A stretch of 64,000 nt of DNA, from the NCBI GenBank assembly GCA_938007935.1, contig CALLMD010000006.1, positions 1 to 64,000 of the forward strand, written 5' to 3'. Source of the stretch: an uncultured Hellea sp. (lineage in GTDB: Bacteria > Pseudomonadota > Alphaproteobacteria > Caulobacterales > Maricaulaceae). The translations under genes and the position numbers were made by a program. Under the pieces are notes generated by a model. The model searched no databases. It saw only the letters and a program-made list of their open reading frames with translations, and was not told where the DNA came from. Below, piece after piece: positions 32,351-52,683 of this stretch (positions are counted from its first letter, which is position 1; each line of letters starts with the position of its first letter).

Positions 32351-32427
32351 TTTGCCTCCCTAATATTTGAAAAAGAGTATCAAAGGCTGAAAATAAAAAT
32401 GCAACCTCTTATTTGTAATTCGTAAAC

Positions 32428-33291
32428 TTAAGACTCAAGTCCGTAATCAAACAAAAATGGATTTGCACTTTTGGAGTCTGTAAACACCCAACCTCGAGAT
32501 AAATCCTTACCTAATTGTTCAAAAGTATTGAAGAGAAAAGCCTTTTTAAAATCATGAAAATTATCTGTTTGGATAAAAGCTATTTTTACACCTTTAAGAA
32601 CATTTTCTTTCATGTGTACCGAACAAATAAGCGGGGAAATTTCTAGCTTATATTTTATAGCAACAGCTCCAGTTTCCAAAACTTCGATGTAGCGCTTAAG
32701 TTGCTTGGTAACGGCCTTAGTCTCTGTGGTTCGGTGAATTTCTAAGATATAGATTCTTGGTTGCCCATTGATCGCTACCCCAAAGATACCGTCTGGCACA
32801 ATGGGAGTTGAGTCGTTTGGCAATCTGATTTCCGTTTTGGGTGTAAAATTGCCCTGCCGTCGTGAGCCAATAATATCGAAGTCCATATCCGTGAAAAGAA
32901 TATCTACATCGGGGCGACTGTTCGCCCATTGCCGAAATCCAATATGGAAATCAACTTGAACGATACGATGCTTTGCAAACATCGCTCCGAACTGGACTTG
33001 GCCTTTGGGATAAGGAAAATTTTCAATCGGTTGTTTGTAAACTTCAGCAAGGTGCTTTGCGCCATGTTCCGTAAGGTAGTGTACTTCGGGCAGAAAATTA
33101 CCAAGTTTACGTTTCTTGGCGAGAGGCTTTCTCGAACGGTGTAGCTTGGGTAATATGTTTTTACGAACGGACGCGTCACTGGCTCCGATGCCAAGTTTTA
33201 CAAATTGAGATACAGTAAGAAACCGATAGATCGATAAAGCGTGTAGAGCTTCAAGAGGTTTAGCCGAAAGTGATTGAACAACTTTACTCAT
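32428..33291 (-). CDS. replication-relaxation family (Replic_Relax)-like protein
   Basis: N-terminal wHTH (ALHALSIYRFLTVSQFVKLGI), HYLTEHGAKHLAE, HRIVQVDFHIGFRQW, PDGIFGVAINGQPRIYILEIHR; ATGA overlap with the upstream ATPase gene. Confidence 0.65.
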   Translation of the reverse strand: MSKVVQSLSAKPLEALHALSIYRFLTVSQFVKLGIGASDASVRKNILPKLHRSRKPLAKKRKLGNFLPEVHYLTEHGAKHLAEVYKQPIENFPYPKGQVQFGAMFAKHRIVQVDFHIGFRQWANSRPDVDILFTDMDFDIIGSRRQGNFTPKTEIRLPNDSTPIVPDGIFGVAINGQPRIYILEIHRTTETKAVTKQLKRYIEVLETGAVAIKYKLEISPLICSVHMKENVLKGVKIAFIQTDNFHDFKKAFLFNTFEQLGKDLSRGWVFTDSKSANPFLFDYGLES

Positions 33292-35045
33292 TGGGCAGAG
33301 ACATCAGGAATTGGGAACTTGGGCTTTCGCAGTGGTTCTGCGTGTTTTGGATTAGGTTTATTTGTAACCTCTTTATCATCTCGATAGTAAGTTTGGCATT
33401 GAGTGGCTTTTAGGTTTTCCCACTTAGCTTTAGCTAATGCGTGTTTGTTTCCGACAATACTGATCTTGGTTTTGATAGCTTGGCGTTCAGATTGAATTTG
33501 AAAGAACTCTAACTTTTTAAGCTCCCGAATATCATCGGCACTGATGGGGTGTTCCTCGGCCATCTTCTTAGCGGTTTTATTTTTATTGCGGCCAATCAGG
33601 TAACAACCAACATTGCCAAAGATTGCGTCTAGTAAAGCACTACCAACTTGTTCTTTGCGTTGAGTGGCAAGGGTAAGGTACAATCCAAACTTTCGGCTCT
33701 CGCCTAGAATTTCTTCAATCTTGGAACTTACAAAATATTGGCATTCATCGGCAAAGAGATGAATGGGTCGGCGTTTCGTTTTCGGGCGGCTCATTGCATA
33801 GTTGGTGATAAAGGCGTTTATTAATTGCCCCGTTGTCCGAATGGCCTCTTGCGTGTGATAATCTGGGTTGAAATGAAAGACGATGAGCTTTCCCGCCTCT
33901 AAACACTCGGCTAGATTAAATGTACTCGGATTACACAAGAACTCTCTTACGGTTGGGTCGCGTATGATTTCTCCAAATCGATAACGTAGCGCCTCTTTGG
34001 TACTTTCAAAATTTCGAGAGTAAAACTGGTGTTGGAAAAAGTCTTTGTCCTGTGCATTGGGTAAATAGTTTTGCCCATACTGAACAAGGTCGCGATTACG
34101 CTTATCATCCATAAAACGGACAAGCTCTGTGAAGTTTGAATGTTTCCTATGTAATAAAACGCCGATACAGGGCGTCAGGAGTGCCCTCTGTGGTCTGGTG
34201 AGTTTTTCACCGATAATTTGCTCTAATGCCCCTAAGAATTGAACCTGAGCGCGATTAAGCGATATTTCATCCGTTCTTTGTATGTCGAATGGATTGAAAC
34301 TGATGTGTTTGCCTATGAAGTGACTAGGCGAGACATAAACGAGACGGTCATTGGTAGCATTCTCTTTAAAGCGAGCTACATCAAGTGCCAGATCGCCATG
34401 CGGATCGAGCACGACCAATGCAGGCTTTGTATTTTTCGTCAGGTAATGACGAATGAGCGTTTTGATAGCTTCTGATTTTCCTGCACCAGTTCCCCCTGTG
34501 ATAAAGGTATGACTTTTACGGGCTTTCTCACTGATATAAAAAGTCTTAGGCGTAAAAAAAAAGTTCTGCGTAAAGTCCGACCAATTATCTTGAAGGGTAG
34601 ACATAATAAAATCCAAATACCCTCCAACATCAAATTTACCAGCCGCGCGGATAGTGCGTATCTGTAAGAGTAGTTTCTGGTAGCTTTTGTGTTTTTCTTC
34701 ATATTGGGCGTAGGCTTTTTGGTATCTATAAATGCGAGCAACTTTTCGGTCTGAGGCGCTATCATATTTTATTTTTACAGGATCAAAGGCTTCATCTTCT
34801 AACTGAGGCTCAATTGGCACTTCGGGAGTAGTGCTCTGTAACCTCAGATATTCTGTGAAAGTCCAAAATGCGCCCGTACGCTCTGCTACAATATCGCAAA
34901 GGTGTTGAGTTAGGTTGGGGTTATAAATGAGCCTGTAGTGACCACAGAGCAACTGGGCATCATCAATATCATTCTCAGAGTCAGAAAAAGAAACCCCAAA
35001 CTCTTTGAGAGCCAGCTTAAACTCATGTTCAAAATCAGGAATCAT
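33288..35045 (-). CDS. VirD4/TraG-like (TraM-recognition/DUF87-type) DNA-translocation ATPase
   Basis: Walker A FITGGTGAGKSEAIKT, VVLDPHGDLA, LFADECQYF, TLATQRKEQVGSALLDAIFGNVG; Met at 35045 taken as likely start. Confidence 0.75.
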   Translation of the reverse strand: MIPDFEHEFKLALKEFGVSFSDSENDIDDAQLLCGHYRLIYNPNLTQHLCDIVAERTGAFWTFTEYLRLQSTTPEVPIEPQLEDEAFDPVKIKYDSASDRKVARIYRYQKAYAQYEEKHKSYQKLLLQIRTIRAAGKFDVGGYLDFIMSTLQDNWSDFTQNFFFTPKTFYISEKARKSHTFITGGTGAGKSEAIKTLIRHYLTKNTKPALVVLDPHGDLALDVARFKENATNDRLVYVSPSHFIGKHISFNPFDIQRTDEISLNRAQVQFLGALEQIIGEKLTRPQRALLTPCIGVLLHRKHSNFTELVRFMDDKRNRDLVQYGQNYLPNAQDKDFFQHQFYSRNFESTKEALRYRFGEIIRDPTVREFLCNPSTFNLAECLEAGKLIVFHFNPDYHTQEAIRTTGQLINAFITNYAMSRPKTKRRPIHLFADECQYFVSSKIEEILGESRKFGLYLTLATQRKEQVGSALLDAIFGNVGCYLIGRNKNKTAKKMAEEHPISADDIRELKKLEFFQIQSERQAIKTKISIVGNKHALAKAKWENLKATQCQTYYRDDKEVTNKPNPKHAEPLRKPKFPIPDVSAQ

Positions 35046-35306
35046 GAAGCCAATTTCAAGGTGTTTTGAAAGGTTGTTTTCAACATGACACCGTGATCTC
35101 ACTAAGGGTATGAATTATATAGAGAAAACAGAGAGTTTCAAATTAAACTCTCCTATCAATACATTGTATTGAGCTAGTGTTTTCTTCTCGCGTTTCATCC
35201 TCGTCATTCGCTCTGCTCTTTCCTCGTCTTCAACTTAATCAGTCAACCCTAATCAATCCAAACATATTGCCAGTCGGCGGCTGGGTGGGCCGCCCCATTG
35301 TCTGCC

Positions 35307-35867
35307 CTACTTTGGAAGCTGTCCCTTTTTAAACAGCTCACTCAAATGCTTGGATATTGTCTCCACTTCAATATTCTCGGCAAAGGCTTTCATCTTTGCC
35401 GAATATTTTTCCTTAAAAGCGAAAACATCTTTTTCTAGCTTTGACTGATGCGTGGCAAAATCTTTACTTTGTTGATGCTCTTGCTTTGAGAGATTCAACT
35501 CTTGCTTGGCTTTGATTTGATTTTCATAAATTCTTAGTTCCAATCCCAAAATCTGCTCGTCCATTGACCAATGGTGACGGATAAAATCATCTCGCCTTCT
35601 CATGATTAATTCTAAAGCTTCACGTTCAAGTTCTCTGGCGTCTTCTGCCATATTAAACTGGTGATCGAGCAGCCTATTGTCTTTGTTAAGCTCGTGCTGG
35701 AGTTCCATTAGCTCTTTGGCATTTGCGCCCTCGATTAAAACGGATTGTGTTTTTTGCCGTTCTTTTCGAGCATCATTGGCTTCTTGACGTTGACGCGTTA
35801 GCTCAGCGCTTTTCTCTAGGCGAATAATGGCATCTTGCTGACGTTTCTCTGCGGCTTGCCAATCCAT
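35307..35867 (-). CDS. coiled-coil protein of unknown function
   Basis: ORF in a tightly overlapping cluster; Gln/Glu/Lys-rich heptads. Confidence 0.6.
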   Translation of the reverse strand: MDWQAAEKRQQDAIIRLEKSAELTRQRQEANDARKERQKTQSVLIEGANAKELMELQHELNKDNRLLDHQFNMAEDARELEREALELIMRRRDDFIRHHWSMDEQILGLELRIYENQIKAKQELNLSKQEHQQSKDFATHQSKLEKDVFAFKEKYSAKMKAFAENIEVETISKHLSELFKKGQLPK

Positions 35868-36277
35868 TAATTGCTGCCGCTTGCTATTTCGGATAGCTGA
35901 TTTAATCGCTGTTGTTGATTATCATTAAGCTGCTGAACAAGCTTCATATCACTATCTGCAACAGCACTAATTTTGCGATGCACGTCATTAAGGTCGTTGG
36001 TAAGGTTTTCCATTTTTTCAATCAAAATAGCTTTCACCTCTTCTACGCCTAGCATTTGCGTCTTAAGAGTTTCCGTTAGGGTCTCATGAAGTGTTTCATT
36101 TTCCTTACGAAGCTCTGAAACGGCTTTATTAAGCTCCGCAACTTCAGCTTTATAATCTCTGATTTGAGGCTCTAATTCCTTTAAGGCTAGCCGAGCCTCG
36201 TAATCCTCTTCTTGCTCATGTTCGTACTGTTTTGCTTTATCACGTGCTTTTTCTGCTTTTGATCGGAAATCAACCAT
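35867..36277 (-). CDS. coiled-coil protein of unknown function
   Basis: Overlaps the downstream gene by 1 bp; long heptad-rich sequence. Confidence 0.6.
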   Translation of the reverse strand: MVDFRSKAEKARDKAKQYEHEQEEDYEARLALKELEPQIRDYKAEVAELNKAVSELRKENETLHETLTETLKTQMLGVEEVKAILIEKMENLTNDLNDVHRKISAVADSDMKLVQQLNDNQQQRLNQLSEIASGSN

Positions 36278-36280
36278 TGT

Positions 36281-36736
36281 TTACTCCACTCCAGCTTCGG
36301 TTAATGTCTCAAAAGCATGACGACCAGTAACGGCAGCTTCCTCATTATCAAGCCCCCCACACTCTGCCATCAAACTTAAAATTGTCGTGATAGAGCGTTT
36401 ATGGTCTCCTGAAATTTTATGGGCGTCCAATGATTCAATCAATAACGCTCGTGAAGCTCTGGCCTGTTTAAAATCATGATAGAGAGATTTACTTTCAGAA
36501 CTTTGTAATATCGAACGCTTGGTGAAAGAGAGGAAGGGATTTACGCCCCCTTCTTTTTTCGCAGCGACCTTTTTAGCATTGTGTTTTTTCAACTCCACAA
36601 AATGCTCCGTTGAAAAAGATTGCGACAGATGTTCAAAATGAATGATCAATGCCTTCATACATTTCATAACATCAGCAACTTGAATGCTGGTCAGGTCAAA
36701 TTTATCCTGAATTTTTTGACTAAGTTCTTCGCCCAC
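36281..36736 (-). CDS. hypothetical protein, first gene of the minus-strand cluster
   Basis: 3-bp spacing to the next gene; coherent globular composition. Confidence 0.6.
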   Translation of the reverse strand: MGEELSQKIQDKFDLTSIQVADVMKCMKALIIHFEHLSQSFSTEHFVELKKHNAKKVAAKKEGGVNPFLSFTKRSILQSSESKSLYHDFKQARASRALLIESLDAHKISGDHKRSITTILSLMAECGGLDNEEAAVTGRHAFETLTEAGVE

Positions 36737-36977
36737 TTTTTCGCCCCAAATTGCACCCTAATGTTGTTTAAGAGGAGTTCTCGAAATAATCAATAAAATT
36801 TTAAAATGCTACATATGCGGGTGTATGTTCAAATGAAGATGTTTGCGAATAATGAAACTGAACTGTAAAAATAATTTCCAACTAAATTCAATTACAGTTT
36901 CATTAAGCCTCTAATTTTAGCCTGTCACATCTTAGATTGGGTGCGCGTAGTGGGAGTTAAATTAATCCATAAAATAA

Positions 36978-38006
36978 ATGTCAAATCCAACATTACAGCA
37001 TGCGAAAGAACAAATTCGAAATAAATACCCGCACCTCATTTCATTATTATCGCCTGATGAAATAAAACTTTATGAGCAAGAAATAGGAAATCAAGAAACA
37101 CCGATCTGGCGATATTGGGAAGACTATGTTTTTAAAACCCTCATTCTAGGGAAAAGCCCTATTACCATAAAATCAGTTCGAGATGGTCTAAATACAATCA
37201 TGCGCCACACGGGCATTCTGACCATTGAACAAGCCAATTCACTAGGTGTGTTGGATCAAGCCACATTAGAGCTACAAATAAAACGAAACCAAAAACCAAG
37301 CACGCGCAATACCTATCTCAAAAATTTCAACACCTATTTTATCTGGCTCTATAAAAATAACTTGATCCAACAAAACAATATTGCTCGCATCGAGAAAGGC
37401 CGCGAAGCACCGCCAGATGTAAAACCGCTAAGTTTAGACCAAATTGAGAAGACAGTTCTACATTTTGGGCGAAGACATCATTCAACGGCACTTGAACGCG
37501 CTCGAAATATTTTAATGGTAGACGTGTTCCGATTTTCTGGTGTTCGCCCCTGCGAATTACTCAGCATGAACAATGATGATATTTTTCAAGAAAACGGAGA
37601 GTGGAGAATGGTGATTAATGGCCGCAAACAAAAAGGGCGTTTACGATATTACGAATTGCCTAGTTTTGTTGTTCATTCCTATCAAAATTATATGAGGTTA
37701 CGTTTCGATAAAGACCGATACGAGAAACCATTATTTATCTCTATGTCTTCACGTGAGGGATGGAAAACAAGCGGTCTACAGCAACTATTTAAGACTGTTT
37801 CAAAAGAGCTTGGGTTTCGAATTACCGCCTATGGTTTTCGGCGTTTTATCGCCACTCAAATGAGCCGAAACGGTATCGCCCGCGATGATCTATCCCGTTA
37901 TTTGGGGCATAATCGATTTACGACTACAGATAGGTATATCGCTAGAGAGTGTCATCTAACACGGAATGGCACCGATATGATGAAGCAAATGTACGATGAT
38001 ATCTGA
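36978..38006 (+). CDS. tyrosine recombinase/integrase 1
   Basis: FRFSGVRPCELLSMNNDDI, ITAYGFRRFIATQM, LSRYLGHNRFTTTDRYIA. Confidence 0.9.
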   Translation: MSNPTLQHAKEQIRNKYPHLISLLSPDEIKLYEQEIGNQETPIWRYWEDYVFKTLILGKSPITIKSVRDGLNTIMRHTGILTIEQANSLGVLDQATLELQIKRNQKPSTRNTYLKNFNTYFIWLYKNNLIQQNNIARIEKGREAPPDVKPLSLDQIEKTVLHFGRRHHSTALERARNILMVDVFRFSGVRPCELLSMNNDDIFQENGEWRMVINGRKQKGRLRYYELPSFVVHSYQNYMRLRFDKDRYEKPLFISMSSREGWKTSGLQQLFKTVSKELGFRITAYGFRRFIATQMSRNGIARDDLSRYLGHNRFTTTDRYIARECHLTRNGTDMMKQMYDDI

Positions 38007-38043
38007 ACCTTTAAAAATGAATATTCGATATTACATATAAATT

Positions 38044-38424
38044 ATGAAATCAGATACTCGCCAAAAGATAAACCCAGAAAAAATTTCTACTGCGGTAGCT
38101 CATTACATGGTTCCAACTGGCTTTTGTGGACTAGGGTTGTTCGGGCTAAATTTTGTAATTAAGAAAGACATCCCGCTTTTAGAAAATGCCACTATGTTTT
38201 TTTGGTATTTAGCAATGGGTATTTTCTTTTTCGGCGGCTTAATTTTTATGTTTTGGTTGCTGACCTATCACATAAAACAAGTAGAGAATTGGTTAGAAAA
38301 GAAACATGTTGGAAAAGGAAAAGCCGCGAAAGCAGTCATACTAATCAAGTTATTTGCTTTCATTATGTTAGTTTGTTTTTTAGGGCTTTTTGCCTTGATA
38401 GCAGGTCTGATTAAAATGGGTTAA
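38044..38424 (+). CDS. small membrane protein
   Basis: Three predicted TM segments. Confidence 0.55.
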   Translation: MKSDTRQKINPEKISTAVAHYMVPTGFCGLGLFGLNFVIKKDIPLLENATMFFWYLAMGIFFFGGLIFMFWLLTYHIKQVENWLEKKHVGKGKAAKAVILIKLFAFIMLVCFLGLFALIAGLIKMG

Positions 38425-38434
38425 AGCACTTTAT

Positions 38435-39337
38435 TCATTCCATGTTATTCATCAAATGTCTTTCGACACTTTCACGTTTATCATCCAATGAAAGATGCGC
38501 GTAAACTTGGGTGGTCTTTATACTCGAATGACCCAATAAACCAGATACGGCGTAAATATCACGAGACCCGCGATAAGTATGTGTAGCGAAAGTGTGCCGC
38601 AGAACTTGCGGAGAAAAATCTATACCTGACCTTTCTTTAAGCTTACGGCACATCACCTGAATTGCGCGAGGGCTTAATGGTGTATCTTGATTGACACATG
38701 TAAAGAAACTTATTTGCTTGGTCTTTTTCGATCTCCGTTCAACGTATTCCAACAAAAAATAAAGCAGTCGAGAAGAAATAGGCACTTGTCGATCTTTGTT
38801 CCATTTTCCTTGTCTTACGAAAATGACGCCATTTTCTAAGTCTACGTCCAACCGTTTTAGGTTGGATATTTCAGAAAGCCTTAGACCCGCAAAAATCATA
38901 ATCCCAATAATAGCTCTGTTTCTGATACCCTCCAGTTTATATGTGTAAGGAAGATGGTAAGCCGTTTCCAGTAACTGTTCACAGACATCTGGCATAAGAT
39001 ATTTGGGCAATCTTTTTTCTAGTGGTGGCTTATCGATGTCATCAGTATAATTGTGGGGTAGGTATTTCTTCTTTACGCACCAGTTACAAAGTGCCCGCAA
39101 ATGTTTCAAATAAGATCGGAATGTCACAACCGACCAATTCCTTTTTGTACGTCCATCAAGAAGAAACTTTTCAATGATTTCTGGCGATAGATCACTCAGT
39201 GTTTCTACATTGGAGGCTTTAGCAAAAAAGCTAAATGTACTTCGATAGCTTTTGATCGTCGCGGGTTGGAAGTTCTTAAATATTTTTCCGTGTTGTAAAT
39301 ACAGATCACAGATAAGGTTGAAGTCGTCGGATTTCAT
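38435..39337 (-). CDS. tyrosine recombinase/integrase 2 (XerC/D-like)
   Basis: FAGLRLSEISNLKRLDVD, QVLRHTFATHTY, VSGLLGHSSIKTTQVYAHLS. Confidence 0.93.
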   Translation of the reverse strand: MKSDDFNLICDLYLQHGKIFKNFQPATIKSYRSTFSFFAKASNVETLSDLSPEIIEKFLLDGRTKRNWSVVTFRSYLKHLRALCNWCVKKKYLPHNYTDDIDKPPLEKRLPKYLMPDVCEQLLETAYHLPYTYKLEGIRNRAIIGIMIFAGLRLSEISNLKRLDVDLENGVIFVRQGKWNKDRQVPISSRLLYFLLEYVERRSKKTKQISFFTCVNQDTPLSPRAIQVMCRKLKERSGIDFSPQVLRHTFATHTYRGSRDIYAVSGLLGHSSIKTTQVYAHLSLDDKRESVERHLMNNME

Positions 39338-39467
39338 AGCACAAGAAAGAGAAAATAATGAGGCTGTCTCGCTATTTTCAAAACTTTTGAGGCGGTTCGT
39401 CCCCCTTTCGGGGGAGTGTCACCAGAAGCTATATTTCCTTGAGTATCAATTGCCGTCTAGTCAGTCA

Positions 39468-39525
39468 TGGCGGAGAAGGAGGGATTCGAACCCTCGGTAC
39501 CCGTGAGGGTACACACCCTTAGCAG
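39468..39525 (-). pseudogene. 3' half of tRNA-Ser(GCT) (anticodon loop to CCA), 5' half missing; probable attachment-site remnant
   Basis: Minus strand CTGCTAA-GGGTG-TGTACCCTCACGGGTACC-GAGGGTTCGAATCCCTC-...-GCCA; sequence 5' of the loop (CATAG) cannot pair with GGGTG. Confidence 0.82.
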
Positions 39526-39702
39526 CTATGAAGACTTCTTACTAAAAGCACTTAGGTCAGTTATAGAGCGGAAAATGTAGCTTCTGAGGTTATAAATTCT
39601 CCAAGATCGGAGAGCCTCATTATTTTGAGAAGAGCAAAATGATTTTACTTGCAATTCAGTATTCTGCAAACTCAAATATAGTTAGAATCAGGACAATCGC
39701 GT

Positions 39703-40008
39703 ATGACAAATCGAAATGAGATAATAAAATCAAAAGGTAGTGAGATTGAACCTCAACTGGAAGCTTCGATTCCAATAATGGATTTACTTAAAGATCCTGA
39801 TGCTATGAACGCTCTCGACAATCTTATAGGTTCAATAATGGATCGAAGTAGAAAGAATGCTACTGGTGAAAGAGTCTTACAAGGTTTGGGAGTTGTCTTG
39901 CTTGTATCTGCAGTTTCAATTCTTTCTTATTTAGAAAAAATGACGCCAAGTGCTGGGGTTATTTTTGGAGCACTAGCAGGTTACATATTCGGAAAAGGCC
40001 TTGAATAG
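39703..40008 (+). CDS. small protein with C-terminal TM hairpin
   Basis: GERVLQGLGVVLLVSAVSILSYLEKMTPSAGVIFGALAGYIFGKGLE; 65 bp upstream of the STAND gene. Confidence 0.6.
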   Translation: MTNRNEIIKSKGSEIEPQLEASIPIMDLLKDPDAMNALDNLIGSIMDRSRKNATGERVLQGLGVVLLVSAVSILSYLEKMTPSAGVIFGALAGYIFGKGLE

Positions 40009-40072
40009 TTTGATGCTACAAACACTCACTTGGAGAACTATTCAATCAGGAAAATTCAGGTAAGCTATTCAT

Positions 40073-43000
40073 ATGTTAAAGGGAGGATTCGCTGATAAAC
40101 TAGGAAATCGCTATGAAGCCAAATGGACTATCAGTAGGCTTCTATTGGTGCTCGCTGGTGACTATGAACATCTTACTTATGAGGGCATCAACGAGGACTT
40201 TAAGGGTTTTGAATTTAGATTAAGCGACTCACAAATTACACAGTGGCACCAAACTAAGATAAACGCCCCTAAAGGTAACTGGACTATTGGAGCACTTCAG
40301 AGAGAAAATTTGCTAAAAGCATTTAAGGATCGGCTAGATGCTGATCAAAATGCACAATGTCATTTCATTTCCCAAGACAATGCTAAAAGCCTCAGAGAAC
40401 TCGCGAATGATGCCCGTCTAGCAAATTCACCTGAGGAGTTTGTGTCGGCTCTAGCTGATGGTCGAATCTCAGATTTTGAAAAACTTAAATATACTTGGGA
40501 TTGTGATAGCAATCATGCATGGCAATTGTTGCAGGGTATCTACGTCAAAGTAATTGTCGAAAGTGAAATCGATACGAACATTACGGCTCTAAGTAGGTTA
40601 CTGCTCAATGTCGATGGCGACACTTACGCGATTTTGCGAAAACATGTCGAAGAAAATTTGAATAAGAGGGTCAATAGAGAGACTCTAAAAAATTGGATCA
40701 ACTCAGAAGATGGTGTTGAATTCAAAGCATGGGCAAGTCCCAAATCCAATATTGAGAGAATACAAGCTGCAAATGAGAGGTATTTATCTACCTATATCCC
40801 ATTCGGAATAGGCGGCAAAACAATCACTAGGAATCAGACTGAAGTTATATGCTCCGACATTATCGACTCTGAAGGCTCAAAAATTGTAATTCTTGCAGGC
40901 GTTGCAGGAAGCGGAAAATCAGGCGCCGCTAGACAAATCATCGATACCTTTAATGAGGCAGGTATTCCTACTTTAGCATTTAGAGTAGATCACTATTTAG
41001 ATTGCCGGCACCCTTCTGAAATAGGCAAAGCCGTTTTAGATATAAATGATTCACCTGTAGCACTACTGAAAGCTCTTTCACCCAGAGAAACTTCCGTGCT
41101 GATCATTGATCAGTTGGACGCTGTTAGTGAAGTGTCAGGTCGAAATGGCGTTGTGAAATCGGGTCTGTTTGAACTTCTTGATGAAGCTTCTCAATACGGA
41201 ACTGTGAAAGTTATTATTATTTGTCGAAGTTATGATCTCGAAAATGATGATCGCTTTAGGAAGCTCTCGAATGGATATAAAACTACCAAAGTTGATCTCC
41301 CCTTACTTAACTGGAATGAAGAAATAGTGCCTGTCTTAGAGGCACTAGACTATGATTGCTCGCAGTTTTCTGAACGACAAAAACGGCTGCTATCTGTTCC
41401 CGTTAACTTAGCTGTCTTTATCGAAACTGGCGATAAATACTTTTCATTTAAAAACCGTGCTGATCTTTTTGGTAAATTAATCAGAAAGAAAGAAAAAGTC
41501 TTTGTAAAACTCGGCTTCTCTTGGTCACTCATGACGCCTTTACAAAAGGTGGCAAAATGGATGAGCGATAGACAGGAGCTATCTGCTCCCGAAAGCATCT
41601 TAGATGAATTTTCAGGTTCTGGTGACTTCTTAAGCTCAGAAAACCTGATTGTCATTTCAAATAGAAAGATCAACTTCTTTCACGAAAGCTTTTTCGATTA
41701 CATTTACGCCCGTTCCTTCATTTCTGGAGAACAATCCGTTCTGGAGATGGTTTTATCAGGAGAACAACATCTCTTCCGAAGAACCCAAGTCCGTCAGATT
41801 TTTGCGCTTATGCGAGAAGCCGATCACTCAAATTACATTCAACAACTGAAGGGCTTACTAATTAGTCAGTTTGTACGTTACCACTTAAAGCTATCAATCG
41901 CACAATGGCTCGCCTCATTAGATGATCCTAGCGCCGATGAGCTAGGTGTCGTCCTTGGATTAGGAAACAGTGAATTAAATAGCCTCCAAATAGTAGTTCT
42001 ATTCTCAAACGCAAATTGGTTCTCTCTACTTCATGAGCAAAAAATCATCGAAAAAACCCTACATGGAAGTTCTGAAAAGAATTCGCGTATAACGCTAAAC
42101 TGGTTATCACAAATAGCAGGACGGCATCCGTCTGAAATAGCCAAGTTAATAGAGAATTGGTGGGCTAAAGATGAAACAAAAGCAGAGCAGCTTGTAGACT
42201 GGTTTGGGTTTCTCAGACGTAATAAGCCAGATGATGAGCTGTTAGAATTATGCGGGCAGGTAATAAAATTTCGTCCCAAGAATCTTTTCAAAGATGAAGG
42301 TCGTGACCGTATAATGATGCTATTGCATACTTGGGTTGATCATGAACCTGAAAAATGTGGAGCTTTAGTAAAAGAACTGTTCGATGCGTGGTTTGAAATG
42401 CATCCCGATGCCAATCTACTTGACCGCGACGATTTTAAGCTCTTGGACAATCATTCGTTAAGCGAGCTTGCGAAAAAGTCATCCCGAGCATTTGTAGAGG
42501 GAACAAGAGATGCGATATTGAGGACTGTAAGAGAAACAGTCGAACAAGGAGAAGAAGGCCGTAGATGGTATTCTCTCATGTCGTCCATGAGATCAGATTA
42601 CCTACATGGTTTCGACGGCCTGTTTCAACTTTTTGAAAAATCACTCTGTGAGCTAAGTAGAACCGAGCCTGATTTCACTAGAGAAACTCTCGCCCGCCTG
42701 CCAGCAAGCCTTCATCCGCGATTTATGGGGTTACATCTGGGAATAATTGGTACAAGCTCCGACACATTCGGAGACATGCTTAGTTCACTCCTTGACGATG
42801 ACAATGCCCTAAAAGCTGGAGTCGATGGGGCTGAATGGAAACCGTTCGCTATAGCTTGTAAAGCCATGTTGGGAGTATCTAACGATTTACGAGATATAAT
42901 CGAAGCTAAGATTTTTTCTATTGATCACGAAATTCAAAGAGCAAAGAGGCTTTGGGACCTATTAAAAAGAGGAGAGGCCAATGAGTGGGTTGATAAAAAC

Positions 43001-44644
43001 TCGGTTCTGAGAAGCTTAAATTTTTCAGGTTGCAGAGAGTGGAATATTCTACACTTCATCGGCATCGAAAACTTATCTGAGAAAGGGAGGAGGCGTTATC
43101 AGCAACTGAGTCACAAGTTTAATACCGAACATATTGATGAAGAAAACTCAGTTCGTATGATTGGAGTTCACTCGCCTATCGGTGCTGAGCAAGCACAACG
43201 AATGAATGATGAGCAGATAATTTCTGCTATGCTAAAATATGATACTGACGAGGGAAAAGATTGGAGGCGCGGAGGTGCATATGAGCTATCTTCTGTAATC
43301 ACAGATCAAGCAAAGAATGACCCAAACCGATACTTAGCTTTACTTTTAAAGTTGCCTCTAAATATCAATCATCTATACCATTCAGGAGTTTTGAGAGGTA
43401 TACGCGATGCGGAAGCCTTCGATAATGAGGTGGCAAGAACGGCTATTCTTCATATCCATGAACATTTTAAATCCAAGCTATCAGACGAAATTTTAAGCGT
43501 GATAGAGACTCATTCATCACTCATTTTATCCGATAAAATAAAAGAACTAGTCTTCGATTATGCCGTTAATGGAGACAGCCCTAGCAGAGAAGACCTTCGT
43601 GAATACAGCGACGATGACTCTAATAATTCTAAAAACAAACTACTCACCGTTGATGATCTTGTTCGATCAGGTGGTGGTGGCATTATGATACAATCCGTTC
43701 ATGGAGGGCGTGCAAAAGCTTGGGACACGCTCAAACGAATTGGCTGGGATCATTCCTCAATACACCAAGAAATTTGGGATTTAGTAGAAACACAAGCTAT
43801 CGATGAAAAGTCGGTAAGCATCAGGGCTAGAATATTTGATGCAATGACGCCACTCTTTAATGACGATAAAAAACGTTATGAAAATGCCTGCCACACACTC
43901 TTCGACCAGAAGACCATAGGAAACAGATCAATCGATCCAATAGCAATATTAGCGACACTTCATGGCGTAAATATGCAAAAATATATCGATTTCAATATGC
44001 CTAAATTCGCTTCAAAATGCATCCACAGGATGACCACAAATGACAATAAAAATGTTCAAGCCGTTGGGACATGGTGGTTGTTTTGTGAGCATTTTCGACA
44101 TGGACGCTCAGGTATACCGCTCAAAGCCGTCGATGAAATGAGCGATCAAGAAAAAATCCTTTATGCTGATATCTTGTCACATGCGTTTCATTGGGACGAA
44201 GTGGAAAAGTCTGCGGAAACTGATTTAATCAGAATGTTCAATGACCCCAATATCAAAATAGGCGAACAAGCCTCTGAAGTTTTCAGGAATTGTAAGCCCG
44301 AAGATTTTCATCGTTGTTTAAAGTTGGCGGAAGCATATATCCGAACAGATGCATACTTAGAAGCATCAACTTACATACTATACGCATTAGATAGCGCAGA
44401 ATGTGATGTCATGGAACTTGTAGTGTTCGGTGCAGAACGATTAATCGCAAGTATTATTGATAAAGGTGATCAACATGGTAGCCGAGGAACAGGCCTTTAT
44501 AAATTACAGGAGCTATTAGCGCGAGAATATGCTGCTTCGGAAAAACGACAAGATATCAGAAAGAGAATATTAGATTTGATCGACCTTATGCTTGAAAATG
44601 ATATTTACGGCACTGAAAAAATTACCTTGGCAAATGATAGATAA
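40073..44644 (+). CDS. Avs-like STAND NTPase with putative N-terminal PD-(D/E)XK (DUF4297/Cap4-like) nuclease and long C-terminal repeat/sensor region; candidate antiphage protein
   Basis: N-term GNRYEAKWTISRLLLVLAGDYEHLTYEGINEDFKGFEF...QWHQTK; Walker A ILAGVAGSGKSGAAR; Walker B SVLIIDQLDAVSE; about 1000-aa helical C-terminus. Confidence 0.68.
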   Translation: MLKGGFADKLGNRYEAKWTISRLLLVLAGDYEHLTYEGINEDFKGFEFRLSDSQITQWHQTKINAPKGNWTIGALQRENLLKAFKDRLDADQNAQCHFISQDNAKSLRELANDARLANSPEEFVSALADGRISDFEKLKYTWDCDSNHAWQLLQGIYVKVIVESEIDTNITALSRLLLNVDGDTYAILRKHVEENLNKRVNRETLKNWINSEDGVEFKAWASPKSNIERIQAANERYLSTYIPFGIGGKTITRNQTEVICSDIIDSEGSKIVILAGVAGSGKSGAARQIIDTFNEAGIPTLAFRVDHYLDCRHPSEIGKAVLDINDSPVALLKALSPRETSVLIIDQLDAVSEVSGRNGVVKSGLFELLDEASQYGTVKVIIICRSYDLENDDRFRKLSNGYKTTKVDLPLLNWNEEIVPVLEALDYDCSQFSERQKRLLSVPVNLAVFIETGDKYFSFKNRADLFGKLIRKKEKVFVKLGFSWSLMTPLQKVAKWMSDRQELSAPESILDEFSGSGDFLSSENLIVISNRKINFFHESFFDYIYARSFISGEQSVLEMVLSGEQHLFRRTQVRQIFALMREADHSNYIQQLKGLLISQFVRYHLKLSIAQWLASLDDPSADELGVVLGLGNSELNSLQIVVLFSNANWFSLLHEQKIIEKTLHGSSEKNSRITLNWLSQIAGRHPSEIAKLIENWWAKDETKAEQLVDWFGFLRRNKPDDELLELCGQVIKFRPKNLFKDEGRDRIMMLLHTWVDHEPEKCGALVKELFDAWFEMHPDANLLDRDDFKLLDNHSLSELAKKSSRAFVEGTRDAILRTVRETVEQGEEGRRWYSLMSSMRSDYLHGFDGLFQLFEKSLCELSRTEPDFTRETLARLPASLHPRFMGLHLGIIGTSSDTFGDMLSSLLDDDNALKAGVDGAEWKPFAIACKAMLGVSNDLRDIIEAKIFSIDHEIQRAKRLWDLLKRGEANEWVDKNSVLRSLNFSGCREWNILHFIGIENLSEKGRRRYQQLSHKFNTEHIDEENSVRMIGVHSPIGAEQAQRMNDEQIISAMLKYDTDEGKDWRRGGAYELSSVITDQAKNDPNRYLALLLKLPLNINHLYHSGVLRGIRDAEAFDNEVARTAILHIHEHFKSKLSDEILSVIETHSSLILSDKIKELVFDYAVNGDSPSREDLREYSDDDSNNSKNKLLTVDDLVRSGGGGIMIQSVHGGRAKAWDTLKRIGWDHSSIHQEIWDLVETQAIDEKSVSIRARIFDAMTPLFNDDKKRYENACHTLFDQKTIGNRSIDPIAILATLHGVNMQKYIDFNMPKFASKCIHRMTTNDNKNVQAVGTWWLFCEHFRHGRSGIPLKAVDEMSDQEKILYADILSHAFHWDEVEKSAETDLIRMFNDPNIKIGEQASEVFRNCKPEDFHRCLKLAEAYIRTDAYLEASTYILYALDSAECDVMELVVFGAERLIASIIDKGDQHGSRGTGLYKLQELLAREYAASEKRQDIRKRILDLIDLMLENDIYGTEKITLANDR

Positions 44645-44650
44645 CTTTAA

Positions 44651-44986
44651 CTAATACTCATCCGCCCGCATGATCGTCATTACGCGTGTTGTTTTCTCTG
44701 GGTCGCTCGGGTCTTCTGATCCGTATCTTAAGCTTGGGTCGTAGTAGTCGATTTTGAAGAAAAATTGATCTCCGTTTATTTCGACAGCCCCAAAGTCATG
44801 CTCATTATAAGGATCATTCCCCTCCTCAAATTTATTGTACACTCGTATTGCTTCAACAACCTTGCCACGTGTTTCGTGGCCTAAATTTTGAACGCCGAGT
44901 GTTGCGACTACTCGCCCGCCAATACCTTGTGTGCGGAGGAGGTCATTAAGTCTTGAGATCGAAGCCGTTTGAGGTGTTTCTTGCAT
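44651..44986 (-). CDS. DUF3768 family protein
   Basis: GGRVVATLGVQNLG, NDPYNEHDFGAVEINGDQFFFKIDYYDPSLRYGSEDPSDPEKTTRVMTIMRADEY. Confidence 0.9.
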   Translation of the reverse strand: MQETPQTASISRLNDLLRTQGIGGRVVATLGVQNLGHETRGKVVEAIRVYNKFEEGNDPYNEHDFGAVEINGDQFFFKIDYYDPSLRYGSEDPSDPEKTTRVMTIMRADEY

Positions 44987-45160
44987 AGGACAAAAATTCT
45001 ACGCCCTCTCGGTGTATGCATTCAAATATCATAGATAGATTTGACTTGAGCGAAAATAAAAACTGTTATGCTTTATAACTTTGACGATATTACAGCAAAA
45101 TCTTTTAAATTTGTAATCTACGGGTAACTTTATAGTTGCTTTAACAATTTGAGATAGACA

Positions 45161-45769
45161 ATGGTGAATATACAACGAATCATTAACTCTAAAAGTACTT
45201 TAACCTTGATGCCAAGTTCACTTCTGAGAAAACCCTCTGATGGCTCTGAAATTGCATCAGAAAGCCTGAAGCGAGATCATTCAAATGAAACTCAGGCCTA
45301 TTTACGCCTAATTTCTGCCGATAACTCGTTTTCTGAACGCAAAAAAGCGATTGGAGAATGGCTAGTGTACTATAATGAAACAGAGTCGAGACAAGACCCA
45401 TCTACGGCCATAAAACAGCTAAACACAATGGTAGATTTTCTTTTCCCCAAAACAGATGACCTCGGGAAATCATGGAATGCTCTGCTTAAAAAGCGAATAC
45501 CAAACGCAGCTACCTCAGAAAGTGTTACAAAATATGGTAATTTAATAAAACTGTGCTACGGTAACTATGCCAATAATCATACATCTATGGAAAAATTTGA
45601 TTTTCATTCTGCCAAATCTCGTATTGAAGCACTCGTTCCAGAGGTCATTAAAGAGCTTGATGAAAGAGAAGCCGAACTAGACCTTCAAATCAAAGAGTCC
45701 CGTGAAAGACAAGCTGAATACAAGATAGCTTTAGTAAATTCCCAGCGTCTGATTGAGGCGATAAGTTAA
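45161..45769 (+). CDS. hypothetical protein with C-terminal coiled coil
   Basis: 202-aa ORF, 1-bp gap to the next ORF. Confidence 0.6.
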   Translation: MVNIQRIINSKSTLTLMPSSLLRKPSDGSEIASESLKRDHSNETQAYLRLISADNSFSERKKAIGEWLVYYNETESRQDPSTAIKQLNTMVDFLFPKTDDLGKSWNALLKKRIPNAATSESVTKYGNLIKLCYGNYANNHTSMEKFDFHSAKSRIEALVPEVIKELDEREAELDLQIKESRERQAEYKIALVNSQRLIEAIS

Positions 45770-45770
45770 A

Positions 45771-46121
45771 ATGAATGCCGAACTTAAAATTCTCAAGCTC
45801 GCCGCCGAGATACTTAAGGCGGTTGCAGGTGGATCTGATAGTATCAAGAAAATGCTTGAGAGTTTTTCGAGTAAAGAGAAAAAAGAAAAGCAACATAAAT
45901 TAGAATTAGACAAAGAAAGAAAAGCTAAAGCGGCTTTGGTCGAAACAAACGCAATGCTGTACAAACTTCTATCTGAAGCCCATGCAAAACAGAAAGAGAT
46001 AAATATTGAAGTAGTTGAATTAAAGGCGAAAAATGTTGATCTGAAAATTCAAAATGACCAATTTTCAATTTGGAAGGCGGGGTGTGTTTGTGAAACTACT
46101 AAAGACATAACTATCAACTAG
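45771..46121 (+). CDS. hypothetical coiled-coil protein
   Basis: Immediately follows 45161-45769; Lys/Glu heptads. Confidence 0.55.
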   Translation: MNAELKILKLAAEILKAVAGGSDSIKKMLESFSSKEKKEKQHKLELDKERKAKAALVETNAMLYKLLSEAHAKQKEINIEVVELKAKNVDLKIQNDQFSIWKAGCVCETTKDITIN

Positions 46122-46123
46122 CA

Positions 46124-47005
46124 CTATTTACTACGATTTATTCGCCCCTGCTTCCGCTTCCTTTTCTTCAATTTATCCCGATAAGCTTTTGGCACTGATT
46201 TCTGATTGCTAACTGACTTCGGTTTTGAAGCGTGAATGTCGAGATGATCTCTCAAGGCAAAATAATCAGGTTCACGAGTTTTGTCCGACCAGATAAAATT
46301 ACTGACTTTGCGAGCTATGGTTTGATTAATCTGACCATCCGAATTGATAATACCAAGCTCTCTCAAGTTGAGATTCCAGTAAAGGTTTTCTTGCTTTAAC
46401 TCACCTGTTCCATCAGGGCGGCGGCACCAACTCAGCGCGTATTCAATATCATCTTTGTTCGCCGATTGGCTCGTATTATCGAGATTGGGATCAATAAATA
46501 TCTGCATGAAGCATTTGTCGATATCAGGGATATTACCGTTACATCGGTCATAAAAAGCCAACAATTCCGACATATATTCCAATGATAAGTCTTGGCGGAT
46601 CATCTCTACGATCAAACCTATTTGCGGGGTTTTATTCCAATAAGGCGCTACCAACTGGGCAAGCGCCGCTAAACGGGCATAATCCACTTCTCCGTTAGCT
46701 GTTTTAAGCTTGAGATCATTTAGATCAAAAGTAGGTGGCTTAAAGGAAACGCCTTCACCTGTTTTTCTAGCCGCTTCTAATGCGGGACGGATTTTATTAT
46801 AGGCTTGGTTCCATCGTTTAGCACTACACAGCCAGATATAGAGCTGATTGATATAATCGGACAATGGCGCGTCCGCAAAACCATCACCGAGCATTTCAGG
46901 CGGTAAAATATTATCTAAGGGTATGCCCGTATCGCCTTTGCGTATGTTAAAATAGATTATCCCTGCGTCGTTCTTAAACAGCCCAACCGTTCCATTTTCT
47001 TCCAT
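46124..47005 (-). CDS. hypothetical protein
   Basis: 293-aa ORF, codon usage consistent with neighbours. Confidence 0.6.
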   Translation of the reverse strand: MEENGTVGLFKNDAGIIYFNIRKGDTGIPLDNILPPEMLGDGFADAPLSDYINQLYIWLCSAKRWNQAYNKIRPALEAARKTGEGVSFKPPTFDLNDLKLKTANGEVDYARLAALAQLVAPYWNKTPQIGLIVEMIRQDLSLEYMSELLAFYDRCNGNIPDIDKCFMQIFIDPNLDNTSQSANKDDIEYALSWCRRPDGTGELKQENLYWNLNLRELGIINSDGQINQTIARKVSNFIWSDKTREPDYFALRDHLDIHASKPKSVSNQKSVPKAYRDKLKKRKRKQGRINRSK

Positions 47006-47023
47006 GTATTATCAGTGTACGGA

Positions 47024-48421
47024 TTATGCTTCGCCTGAAAAATCCAAGTTCTGATTTTCTCGCTCCGCTTCAGAAACAGGATCAACAAATTGCGGATATA
47101 ATCGGTGTAGATAATCCACTAGCCCTAACTGATCGGAATGCCCTGAAGCATAGTTTTCCTGCGTGTAATCCCCGAATGCCGCGATGACCTCTAAGTTTGG
47201 ATGTCCGTCTGCATTTTCCAATCCCAATCGTTTCAAGACTTTGGTTGTTCCAGCTTGGTTATTTTCCCAGCCAAAGGTGGTTTGGGTTTCAGAGAATAAG
47301 CGACTTTGATTTTGGATAAGGGTTTGTTGGTGTTCAAAGTTTTCAATGTCACCATCATACCCTGCAAAACCACCAGTCATGTGACTAATCACTTGTCGAA
47401 ACCGATTAACGGTCAAAGGATCAAAAGCTCCGCCGCTATCCAATACTGAGAAATCAATTTTGTAGATATTCTCAACAAAGCCCGTGGTTCCAAAGCTTTC
47501 AGTCGTATGCCAGTAATGCATGACTTCGACCATTAGGCCAATGTCCTCGCCTGACCAACCCGTAACGTCTTTGGTGACGATATGATCGCCTGATCGAGCT
47601 TCGATAATCTGTCGGCCTGACGGTTCGGCATAGCCGCTCACGCCCGATCTAAATTCACGCTTATTGTCTTCGGTATTGCTAAAGACCCCATCAGCATTTT
47701 TCTCCGAGAGAACGTCCTGCACATCTGAGCCTGTGACAACATCTCGAAGACGTGTTTTAGTTTCTGCCGAGAATGCTTCTGATTTATCTATCTCAGCTAA
47801 TACAGGCGAGAACATGGTGTTGAGATCATTCGCGCCTAAGTCAATCGGTACAGATGCCAACATAGCTTCAAAGGCGGCTTGCTCTTGTGGGTCTTCAATA
47901 ACGCTCCGTAAATCGGCAAGTGTCTTTCTAAACTGGGTTATTTGTTTCAGGGCTATTTCAGCTTTGTCAAATTTCGACACCTGCGCTTCAATCCGTTCTA
48001 ATTTGGTATCAATACTGCCACCCTTTTCAAATTCTTCCCGCGCTACTTCATTTAATTTTGTTAGCACTTCAGTCGTTGTGTCAATCTTCTCTAGCTCTTC
48101 TGTTTTCGCGGCGATTTCAGTGTTTTCAATACAGGTATCAAGTTCAAATTCAGCGAAATCAGGATCATCTAATATAGCTGGATCAGTGATAAGTAATTTG
48201 GCCGCTTCATGTGCCGCCATTGATAAATGTAGTGAAGAGTTACATTTATCTCGTAGGTAATCTTGAGCGTGTTCTGGCAAGCTTAATAGGGAGGTATCAA
48301 CGCTATCGCTTAAAGATACTCGTTCTTGAGTGGATGCCTCTAAAGCGTCTGATTTCTCCTGCAAATAATCTGCGTTTGACTCAGGTGATCTCTCGCCGCC
48401 AGCCAACTCATAAGAGTTCAT
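47024..48421 (-). CDS. hypothetical protein with N-terminal coiled coil
   Basis: 465-aa ORF; contains a segment paralogous to the adjacent lipoprotein. Confidence 0.6.
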   Translation of the reverse strand: MNSYELAGGERSPESNADYLQEKSDALEASTQERVSLSDSVDTSLLSLPEHAQDYLRDKCNSSLHLSMAAHEAAKLLITDPAILDDPDFAEFELDTCIENTEIAAKTEELEKIDTTTEVLTKLNEVAREEFEKGGSIDTKLERIEAQVSKFDKAEIALKQITQFRKTLADLRSVIEDPQEQAAFEAMLASVPIDLGANDLNTMFSPVLAEIDKSEAFSAETKTRLRDVVTGSDVQDVLSEKNADGVFSNTEDNKREFRSGVSGYAEPSGRQIIEARSGDHIVTKDVTGWSGEDIGLMVEVMHYWHTTESFGTTGFVENIYKIDFSVLDSGGAFDPLTVNRFRQVISHMTGGFAGYDGDIENFEHQQTLIQNQSRLFSETQTTFGWENNQAGTTKVLKRLGLENADGHPNLEVIAAFGDYTQENYASGHSDQLGLVDYLHRLYPQFVDPVSEAERENQNLDFSGEA

Positions 48422-48453
48422 CCACTAATTATAGCAGATATACGCTCAAATTC

Positions 48454-48810
48454 CTAATTTTGCGGACGTGCGCCCTTTTCAAATTCTTCCCGCGCCATCT
48501 GTTGAAACTCTTTACTTAACACTTCATTGGTTGTGTTGCCTTCTTCGATTTTGGTATCTAACGCGGCGATTTCAGCTTGTCTGGCCGCTTTTGCTTCTCG
48601 CATACAGGTTAGTTTTTCAGCTTTCGTAGCACCGACCAAGGCTCTACATTCTGCTTGTGTTCGTACTTTCACTTCTACCACTGCCGCCATTGACGTAAGC
48701 TCGGCTGTGGTTGTCTGAGGCGCGTTCTTATCCTCTGCTCCAGCATCAGCACATCCTGCTAACGCCAAGCCACCTGCCGCCGTTGCCAAGAGAGTTCTAA
48801 GTTTTCCCAT
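48454..48810 (-). CDS. small predicted lipoprotein
   Basis: MGKLRTLLATAAGGLALAGC lipobox; shares NTTNEVL..AREEFEKG with 47024-48421. Confidence 0.6.
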   Translation of the reverse strand: MGKLRTLLATAAGGLALAGCADAGAEDKNAPQTTTAELTSMAAVVEVKVRTQAECRALVGATKAEKLTCMREAKAARQAEIAALDTKIEEGNTTNEVLSKEFQQMAREEFEKGARPQN

Positions 48811-48840
48811 GAAAGGTATATTAAGTACCATAAAGGCTAC

Positions 48841-49554
48841 CTATTCTCCATTTTTTGTCAAATATTCGTCGAGCTTAGGAGCCAGTAATTCCCATAATTG
48901 ATCGGCCAAACCCGCCTGATTTTCTTGGACAGGCATTGGGTCAAATATGTTGTGAGTGAGCGCGGCTTCTCGCGCCTGAGCTTCATCTATGCCGAGATAA
49001 CGGATGGTTGACACAGATGATCTATGGCCGAGTAAACGACCAATAAGCTCCACTGTAACACCTTGCTGATAAAGGTAGATCGCCTTTGAACGTCGTAGAG
49101 AGTGTGCACTAATATTCTGCGAAGGAATACCAACCGCTTTAACCCATGACTTAATCAGTGTTCGATAAAAGCCAATCGTTATCGGTTGACCATGTGGGTC
49201 TTTAGTTCGCGTGAAAATATAATCGTGTTCTCGTTTCTGACTTGCGATCACCCAGCTCTTAAGAGCCTTACGCGTATCAAGGGTAAGTACAGGAAAAACA
49301 GATTGAGATGTTTTCTTCTGCCGTAACGGAAAGCTTTGATGAACTGCCCCATCTGAAAGCATTACATCTCGGGTTTTCAGGTTCAACAAATCCGAGGCTC
49401 GGAGCATCGTATCTATGGCCACCATAAACAGGCAGTAGTCATGTGAATGGTTTTTTAATTGCGATCTGATCTGCGCAATTTCAGGCACGGATAAGGCTCG
49501 CCGTGCACCGACACTGCGGCCTTTGTTCCACGGCTGGCCGTAATTTCTCGTCAT
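48841..49554 (-). CDS. short tyrosine recombinase 3 (catalytic domain only)
   Basis: DTMLRASDLLNLKTRDV, ISAHSLRRSKAIYLYQQ, IGRLLGHRSSVSTIRYLGI; lacks the SAM-like N-terminal domain. Confidence 0.88.
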   Translation of the reverse strand: MTRNYGQPWNKGRSVGARRALSVPEIAQIRSQLKNHSHDYCLFMVAIDTMLRASDLLNLKTRDVMLSDGAVHQSFPLRQKKTSQSVFPVLTLDTRKALKSWVIASQKREHDYIFTRTKDPHGQPITIGFYRTLIKSWVKAVGIPSQNISAHSLRRSKAIYLYQQGVTVELIGRLLGHRSSVSTIRYLGIDEAQAREAALTHNIFDPMPVQENQAGLADQLWELLAPKLDEYLTKNGE

Positions 49555-49746
49555 GAAAAAGGAGGTGACGCTATTTATAAAAGCAATGCTATTTTACAGA
49601 AATAGTGTCGATAACAAGGGAATTTTGTGGAAAATGGATTTAGCTTTCTCAAATTCCAACGACCATAAAACCCTTATGAGTCAAGGCGGATTGAGTGACG
49701 CTTTTATAAAAAGCAAGTATGATACTGCTGTCTTAATCAAAACACG

Positions 49747-50136
49747 ATGTCAGTTGAAATATCTGAACTTCATATTGCGATAGCGCAGGCTAAAGGATTC
49801 CAAGTCTACGAGACTTATAGCGAACCAAAGGCCGCACAGATTTTAGGCCTTAGCCTCTCTACCCTGAGTCGATTACGGCATAGCGGGTCTATTGGCTTTA
49901 TCCAAAAAAGCGAACGCCGTGTGGGGTATTTCGGGTTTCACCTCATCGACTATTTATTAGCGCGACAATCATGCCCAAATACAGAACAACGAAAAGATAC
50001 CAAGTCGGTGATTACTGGCTCTCTAAGCAAAGCCGTAGCCCCGCATGGTGCCGTACATGGTACTGCAAACGTACCAAGCAAACCCGCCGTACTTCACTCC
50101 TCACGACAGATTTTAACGAGGCCAAGGATCGCTTAA
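49747..50136 (+). CDS. HTH excisionase-like DNA-binding protein
   Basis: YSEPKAAQILGLSLSTLSRLRHSGSIGFIQKSERRVGYFGFHLIDYL (MerR/excisionase-type HTH); overlaps the following integrase ORF. Confidence 0.65.
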   Translation: MSVEISELHIAIAQAKGFQVYETYSEPKAAQILGLSLSTLSRLRHSGSIGFIQKSERRVGYFGFHLIDYLLARQSCPNTEQRKDTKSVITGSLSKAVAPHGAVHGTANVPSKPAVLHSSRQILTRPRIA

Positions 50137-51143
50137 ATCAGTGGTTTATTTTGGAATGCCAAAAGAAAAATCAACCAAGTGATCATGTGACTATCGCTTC
50201 AATCTTTGCGCGGTATTATGAAAAGCATGGTCGGCATTTAAGCTCATATGATAGCGTTAAACGGAACCTCGAACACTGGTTGGATTTCCACGGTGAAGCA
50301 ACGCTCGAAGAAGCGGCTGATCTACGCCAACAAGAAATCTTTAGAGACTGGCTTCAGACAGAACGCAAACTCGGTTTAAACTCGGTGCGTAAGGTTATTA
50401 CTATCGGAAAGGCTGCTTTTAACTGGTCGTACAAACGCGGTGAAATTGAAAACGTCCCCTACTTTGAAACGGTCAAAGTACCAACACCTGAACCGCTCGG
50501 ACGACATCTTGAAATCTCAGAAATTGCCGCCCTCTTTCGAGCCGCTGATAAACCACATATCAAAATGTTTATGATCATGCTCATAGCGACAGCGGCGCGG
50601 CCAAAGGCTGTCTTAGATTTACAGTTCGATCAGATCGGCTTCAAACGTGACATCATTGATCTGAACCCGAAAGGCAGAACGCAAACGACTAAAACGCGGC
50701 CAATAGTCAAAATACCAAAATCTATAAAGCCGCTTCTAAATTTAGAACAAAGCATGAACTTAAATTCTTACCTAATCCATTACAAAGACGCACCGATTAA
50801 GAGCACTCGATCCGCTTGGCAAAACTTACGGGATGCCGCTGGATTAGATAAAAAAGTCATGCCCTATTCTATACGCCGCACAATTGCACGGTTCATGAGA
50901 CAGCAAGGGGTTCCTGCTTGGGAAGTAGCGGAACAACTGGGACATAAGTCCACTGGCTACCGCATTACAGAGCTATATACGGCTCATAGTCCTGACTATT
51001 TAGAAAAAGCTGTAGAGGCGATTGATGTATTCTTTGACCAATTAACGTGTGAATTACGTGTGAGTCGTCTTGAAGACATTTTTCATGGCTCTGAAAAACC
51101 GTTAAAAATCAAGGAGAAGAATGGTAGTGAGAGTGAGACTTGA
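49971..51143 (+). CDS. tyrosine recombinase/integrase 4, likely cognate integrase of element A
   Basis: LIATAARPKAVLDLQFDQI, MPYSIRRTIARFMRQQ, VAEQLGHKSTGYRITELYTAH; last codons lie in the att core. Confidence 0.92.
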   Translation: MPKYRTTKRYQVGDYWLSKQSRSPAWCRTWYCKRTKQTRRTSLLTTDFNEAKDRLNQWFILECQKKNQPSDHVTIASIFARYYEKHGRHLSSYDSVKRNLEHWLDFHGEATLEEAADLRQQEIFRDWLQTERKLGLNSVRKVITIGKAAFNWSYKRGEIENVPYFETVKVPTPEPLGRHLEISEIAALFRAADKPHIKMFMIMLIATAARPKAVLDLQFDQIGFKRDIIDLNPKGRTQTTKTRPIVKIPKSIKPLLNLEQSMNLNSYLIHYKDAPIKSTRSAWQNLRDAAGLDKKVMPYSIRRTIARFMRQQGVPAWEVAEQLGHKSTGYRITELYTAHSPDYLEKAVEAIDVFFDQLTCELRVSRLEDIFHGSEKPLKIKEKNGSESET

Positions 51144-51166
51144 ACTCACGACCTCAGGATTATGAG
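51120..51166. repeat. att site copy 2: junction of elements A and B
   Basis: 47 bp identical to copies 1 and 3 (48 bp with copy 3). Confidence 0.93.
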
Positions 51167-51346
51167 TTCTGTGGAAAAGATTATTACAACGAACATTTGC
51201 GATGTTGAAAGACTGAGTAATGTTATAAAAGATAATATTATCAATGACTTAAAAGCTTTATAGTTCCCCAAATGTGAGGAGCGATTGGGAAAAGATTAAA
51301 AAAATCAAACCCAATTCAAACCGCGGTAAAACTTGAGAGCAAAGAT

Positions 51347-52642: not shown

Positions 52643-52644
52643 CC

Positions 52645-52683
52645 GAGAGAGAAAGAGAGAGAGAGAGAGAGTGTGTGTGTGTG
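52645..52683. repeat. GA/GT dinucleotide microsatellite
   Basis: gagagagaaagagagagagagagagagtgtgtgtgtgtg directly after the integrase stop codon. Confidence 0.9.

Follow-up and report, generated by a model that had tools for sequence, protein, structure and literature searches.

The window, by which is meant the whole stretch of 64,000 nucleotides that was analysed, contains a large open reading frame (ORF) encoding 1523 aa and, 64 bp upstream on the same strand, a small ORF encoding 101 aa. Both ORF calls fall where an earlier note on this DNA had placed them, and the motifs it had quoted, EDFKGFEF (residues 41-48) and QWHQTK (residues 57-62), were both located in the 1523-aa sequence, as were Walker A and Walker B motifs. 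The large ORF is not a chance frame, because it has full-length homologs at 34-38% identity and approximately 75 loci share the same layout. Its start codon matches that of the homologs, whose N-termini read M-x-x-GG-x-ADK-x-GN. The features of the locus are listed in Table 1.

Table 1. Features of the locus, with positions in the window
Feature	Coordinates	Strand	Basis
GC-poor composite integrative island holding the gene	28521..60282		tRNA-Met 3' repeats, GC content, five tyrosine recombinases
tRNA-Ser 3' fragment, likely attachment-site remnant	39468..39525	-	85% over 58 bp to tRNA-Ser(GCT), contig C22
101-aa two-TM ORF, probably not part of the system	39703..40008	+	ORF call; absent from family loci examined
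Single-gene STAND nuclease (predicted), 1523 aa	40073..44644	+	ORF call; full-length homologs
N-terminal PD-(D/E)xK nuclease domain (predicted), Cap4/DUF4297 type (residues ~4-217)	40082..40723	+	Model, VIA-align, LmuA profiles in relatives
Predicted catalytic segment, acid E47 and Q60-x-K62	40211..40258	+	Conservation in 69 members
STAND/NACHT NTPase and winged-helix module (predicted; residues ~241-600)	40793..41872	+	NACHT/AAA/nSTAND matches; fold
Walker A, GVAGSGKS (residues 276-283)	40898..40921	+	G279, G281, and K282 in 69/69 members
Walker B, LIIDQLDA (residues 343-350)	41099..41122	+	D346, Q347, and D349 in 69/69 members
FFHESFFDY motif (residues 535-543), end of winged-helix module	41675..41701	+	F535 and H537 in 69/69 members; position in model
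C-terminal HEAT/ARM-type alpha-solenoid, presumed sensor (residues 600-1523)	41870..44641	+	Model; fold and profile matches

In Pfam, residues 269-394 of the large protein match the AAA family just above threshold, and NACHT and nSTAND are matched below threshold (NACHT, 23.8 vs. 26.7 bits). NCBIfam gave nothing relevant and PHROGs no match for the 1523-aa protein, while PADLOC returned for the full protein a weak RecD_like match across the P-loop and nothing else.

With regard to the small ORF, its product carries a hydrophobic hairpin at the C-terminus that would form two transmembrane (TM) segments, and it had been put forward in the earlier note as a membrane partner of the large protein. 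A two-gene system, with the 101-aa protein as effector or regulator, would be in line with the common strand and the 64-bp spacing, which make co-transcription possible, but it is a very improbable arrangement, since homologs of the 101-aa protein are absent from 60 related genomes, plasmids, and viral contigs, and small TM-like ORFs lie within 500 bp upstream in just 3 of 76 family loci, all unrelated to it. The lone weak relative found among 385 genomes of the class (37% over 54 aa) is encoded between leuD and leuB, far from the STAND gene of the same genome. The small protein is missing from every family locus examined and was dropped as a system partner. A small two-TM protein encoded between leuD and leuB at L115 (1465-1815) is similar to the 101-aa protein (LQGLG..VLL...AGYIFG), and this sequence likeness points to a general family of small membrane proteins.

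According to the AlphaFold model of residues 2-690 (pLDDT 90), the head of the 1523-aa protein is a PD-(D/E)xK nuclease of the Cap4/DUF4297 type, for which DNA cutting is predicted. The modelled head has a helix at 12-26 and strands at 32-35, 47-50, 55-61, and 93-99 (model numbering, i.e., protein numbering minus 1), and it combines the alpha/beta core, the acid, and the (Q/E)-x-K motif by which this type of nuclease is recognized. Residues ~6-217 align with Cap4 (7yia; Z 14.3 over 201 residues, 3.3 A), HamA of Hachiman (8zue; Z 14.2), and HerA-associated DUF4297 (9c1m; Z 13.8) in VIA-align comparisons. In addition, the heads of several relatives match LmuA (Lamassu) profiles (best E 6.6e-6), including one with a DUF4297 annotation, and the link to Cap4/DUF4297 nucleases is supported by the fold together with these weak matches in relatives.

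The residues expected of such an enzyme are well conserved among the 69 family members. Position 47 is acidic in all of them (50 Glu, 19 Asp), W70 is invariant, and E37 is kept in 68; K62 is kept in 68 and Q60 in 64 (Ser in the other five), conservation that is partly selected because the peptides ADK[LF]GN[RI]Y and WHQTK were used in the family scan. The Walker motifs lie outside these peptides, as do positions 37, 47, and 70, and conservation at these sites is unselected. The nuclease head, at which the earlier note had guessed, is supported as PD-(D/E)xK-type by the fold match of the model, residue conservation, and the LmuA matches of relatives. Bacterial STAND proteins include transcription regulators, and Pfam sees no nuclease head in the 1523-aa protein, two points that could favor a MalT-like regulator or else a copy that has decayed and lost its activity, in either case devoid of nuclease function. 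Such an interpretation is rated highly unlikely, given that the frame is intact, the catalytic-type residues are conserved, and the head has the fold of a nuclease and not that of a DNA-binding regulator domain.

The middle of the protein is, as modelled, a STAND/NACHT switch. It possesses the hallmarks of the superfamily, namely, Walker A, Walker B with D-x-x-D, and a NACHT-like fold with a winged helix, and R385 and D388 are invariant in 69/69 members along with the residues listed in Table 1. The Walker A/B NTPase core described in the earlier note can accordingly be specified as STAND/NACHT by fold, with key Walker residues invariant. When the model of residues 2-690 was searched with Foldseek, the best match was Avs4 with portal (8dgf, E 4.7e-13) and the second was Avs3 with terminase (8dgc, E 5.7e-13), followed by NLRP9 and NLRP3. 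Avs4 aligns with residues 218-689 over 432 residues (VIA-align, Z 16.5), at an rmsd of 15.9 A that implies shifted domains and no rigid match. NLRP3, NLRP9, and NOD2 align with the middle domain at Z 13-14 by the same means.

The remaining ~920 C-terminal residues are helical throughout in the model of residues 600-1523 (pLDDT 87), in agreement with the long helical C-terminus claimed previously. Fold matches of this tail include PP2A-A, importins, SF3B, and CAND1, the highest Z being 14.3, close to what helical repeats reach through common arrangement, and the family profile of the tail matches alphaRep and PP2A-A sequences at E values of 4e-6 to 3e-3. Fold and profile matches both support HEAT-type repeats, and an alpha-solenoid of the HEAT/ARM type is the supported reading of the model; that this solenoid is the sensor is presumed. 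The tails of Avs3 and Avs4 do not appear among the fold matches listed for it, which is not proof of a difference. TPR-like repeats have been reported for the sensor tails of Avs proteins, and a tail built of HEAT repeats would set the protein apart from these and hint at a ligand of another kind.

The three-part architecture is established, at the level of prediction, by the model, the fold search, and the conservation. By analogy with Avs3 and Avs4, the 1523-aa protein is quite probably a single-protein anti-invader receptor that works as they do and aborts infection. At rest, the STAND module would presumably be ADP-bound, with the N-terminal nucleases held apart. The HEAT-type solenoid would then bind a component of the invader, probably a conserved phage protein, whereupon ATP binding may drive oligomerisation via the NACHT-like module. 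Oligomerisation would gather the DUF4297/Cap4-type heads, and these could cut both phage and host DNA, so that infection is aborted. The scheme draws by inference on Avs, Cap4, and HerA-DUF4297 for its ligand, for the activity of the nuclease, for oligomerisation, and for protection against phage. Avs1-4 are known to sense phage packaging proteins and to cut phage and host DNA with their nuclease heads, which leads to killing (PMC12931631).

The gene resides in an island whose GC content is 35-44% across about 28.1-60.2 kb vs. 45-53% outside. It is bounded by 55-bp repeats from a tRNA-Met 3' end, which are found at 28521-28575, 51117-51171, and 60228-60282, and among its genes are five for tyrosine recombinases and others of mobilisation type. 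The internal repeat copy (51117-51171) overlaps the end of an integrase gene. The tRNA-Ser fragment, ~180 bp upstream of the 101-aa ORF, adjoins a tyrosine recombinase (38435-39337) and is a likely second attachment site. At 32428-35102, a Replic_Relax (replication-relaxation) protein adjoins a TrwB/HerA-type coupling ATPase that is mad8-like at 1e-17 in PADLOC, the pair suggesting a mobilisable element. The same gene run includes a 917-aa protein (29597-32350) that matches nothing in Pfam, PADLOC, or NCBIfam. This setting, together with relatives that reside on plasmids and in some cases adjoin recombinases, would also suit the same machine directed at a plasmid or a competing integrative element, by which the niche of the island would be protected. 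Such a target appears unlikely, in that Avs3 and Avs4, the closest characterised architectures, both sense phage proteins, and anti-phage genes too are usually carried on mobile islands.

The 1523-aa protein belongs to a widespread family. Full-length relatives at ~35% identity occur on rhizobial plasmids and in other alphaproteobacteria. Genome and viral contigs scanned with single sequences yielded no relatives. When five members were aligned and used for the search, 80 loci emerged from GTDB species genomes and none from viral contigs; phage records likewise contained no relatives of the 1523-aa protein. The gene is present in approximately 75 of the 80 loci, mostly as one intact frame of ~1480-1590 aa and in a few cases as two or three frames. 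The latter were noted at L019, L020, L042, L055, L081, and L082, as sequencing errors or decayed copies. Members come from Actinomycetota, Planctomycetota, Bacillota, Cyanobacteriota, Thermodesulfobacteriota, Myxococcota, and other phyla, and across this range the ~75 loci keep a single-gene layout of ~1500 aa with no conserved neighbour. The large gene is missing from the 60 related genomes and rare in the class and phylum samples. In a quick tree, the protein of the window falls into a fully supported ten-row clade in which alphaproteobacteria are mixed with Desulfobacterales, Aminicenantes, and Myxococcota bins, a mixture that fits horizontal spread and is not proof of it.

Defence-type genes, such as GajA, AriA, AbiLi, pAgo, and Old, were detected near family loci. 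At a threshold of 1e-10, 193 PADLOC models have matches among genes lying no more than 1.5 kb from a family member, vs. 77 among genes beyond 5 kb, a contrast that serves as a hint and not as a tested enrichment, with related models counted repeatedly. Next to a plasmid-borne member, at L002 (8866-10887), lie genes for multiubiquitin, ThiF, and DUF6527, which together form a set for ubiquitin-like conjugation. The family is widespread, is unnamed in both Pfam and NCBIfam, and stands outside the named PADLOC families; a literature search found no experiment on any of its members. Bacterial STAND receptors thereby gain a widespread, uncurated single-gene family in which the residues of the catalytic site and of the switch are conserved over many phyla. 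Tentatively, and with the odds somewhat against it, the family may form a further, separate Avs-like class, found as a single gene in many phyla, in which the HEAT solenoid recognizes something other than terminase or portal, from a phage or from a mobile element.

Among candidate systems, the nearest model is PDC-M54A of PADLOC, which matches 57 of 62 family members (best E 7.5e-23); the protein of the window matches it at 1.8e-10, only over profile positions 249-444 of 1621, around the NTPase. By its name, PDC-M54A is a multi-gene candidate, whereas the family described here has no fixed neighbour. A distant full-length homolog with a solved structure, an 'AAA family ATPase' of 1523 aa, was found in PDB entries 9n00, 9n01, and 9yix. 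Profile matches to this set reach E 2.2e-51 for residues 2-690, 1.1e-18 for the tail, and 2.5e-7 for the head alone, and the single-sequence match is distant (E 5e-12). The 9n00 protein shares homology in head, NTPase, and tail, with the acid and Q-x-K kept, and is absent among the matches listed from the April 2026 fold library. No paper on 9n00/9n01 or on PDC-M54 was found in the literature.

With regard to the Avs systems, the earlier note had claimed an Avs-like sensor, and as far as architecture is concerned this holds, Avs4 and Avs3 being the top fold matches. Like them (8dgf, 8dgc), the large protein joins a PD-(D/E)xK head, a central STAND NTPase, and a long repeat tail, and so follows the AVAST layout of N-terminal effector, central STAND, and C-terminal repeat sensor in one protein. 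A named Avs type could not be assigned, as none of the Avs1-5 profiles covers the protein. No Avs model matches the full 1523-aa protein at E <= 1; the Avs2 model PDLC02164 scores 18.9 bits over positions 332-462 of 1504 (NTPase), and Avs2 models weakly match 11 of 62 family members. Because these profile matches are weak and the nearest model is PDC-M54A, the protein was not filed under Avs1-5, and it is most likely an Avs-like receptor for abortive infection that carries a HEAT tail and lies outside those types, with anti-phage function and ligand proposed by analogy. It differs from Avs4 and Avs3 in lacking Avs profile coverage and probably in its tail, which matches HEAT/ARM solenoids. With the Cap4/DUF4297 nucleases (CBASS Cap4, HerA-DUF4297, LmuA, and HamA), it shares the head fold and the D/E...QxK residues, but these systems rely on a SAVED domain or a HerA, SMC, or helicase partner, whereas the head here is fused to a STAND switch. 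Finally, bacterial NACHT proteins and animal NLRs have a similar NACHT-type NTPase with a winged-helix module, and the protein of the window is set apart from them by its predicted nuclease head and HEAT tail.
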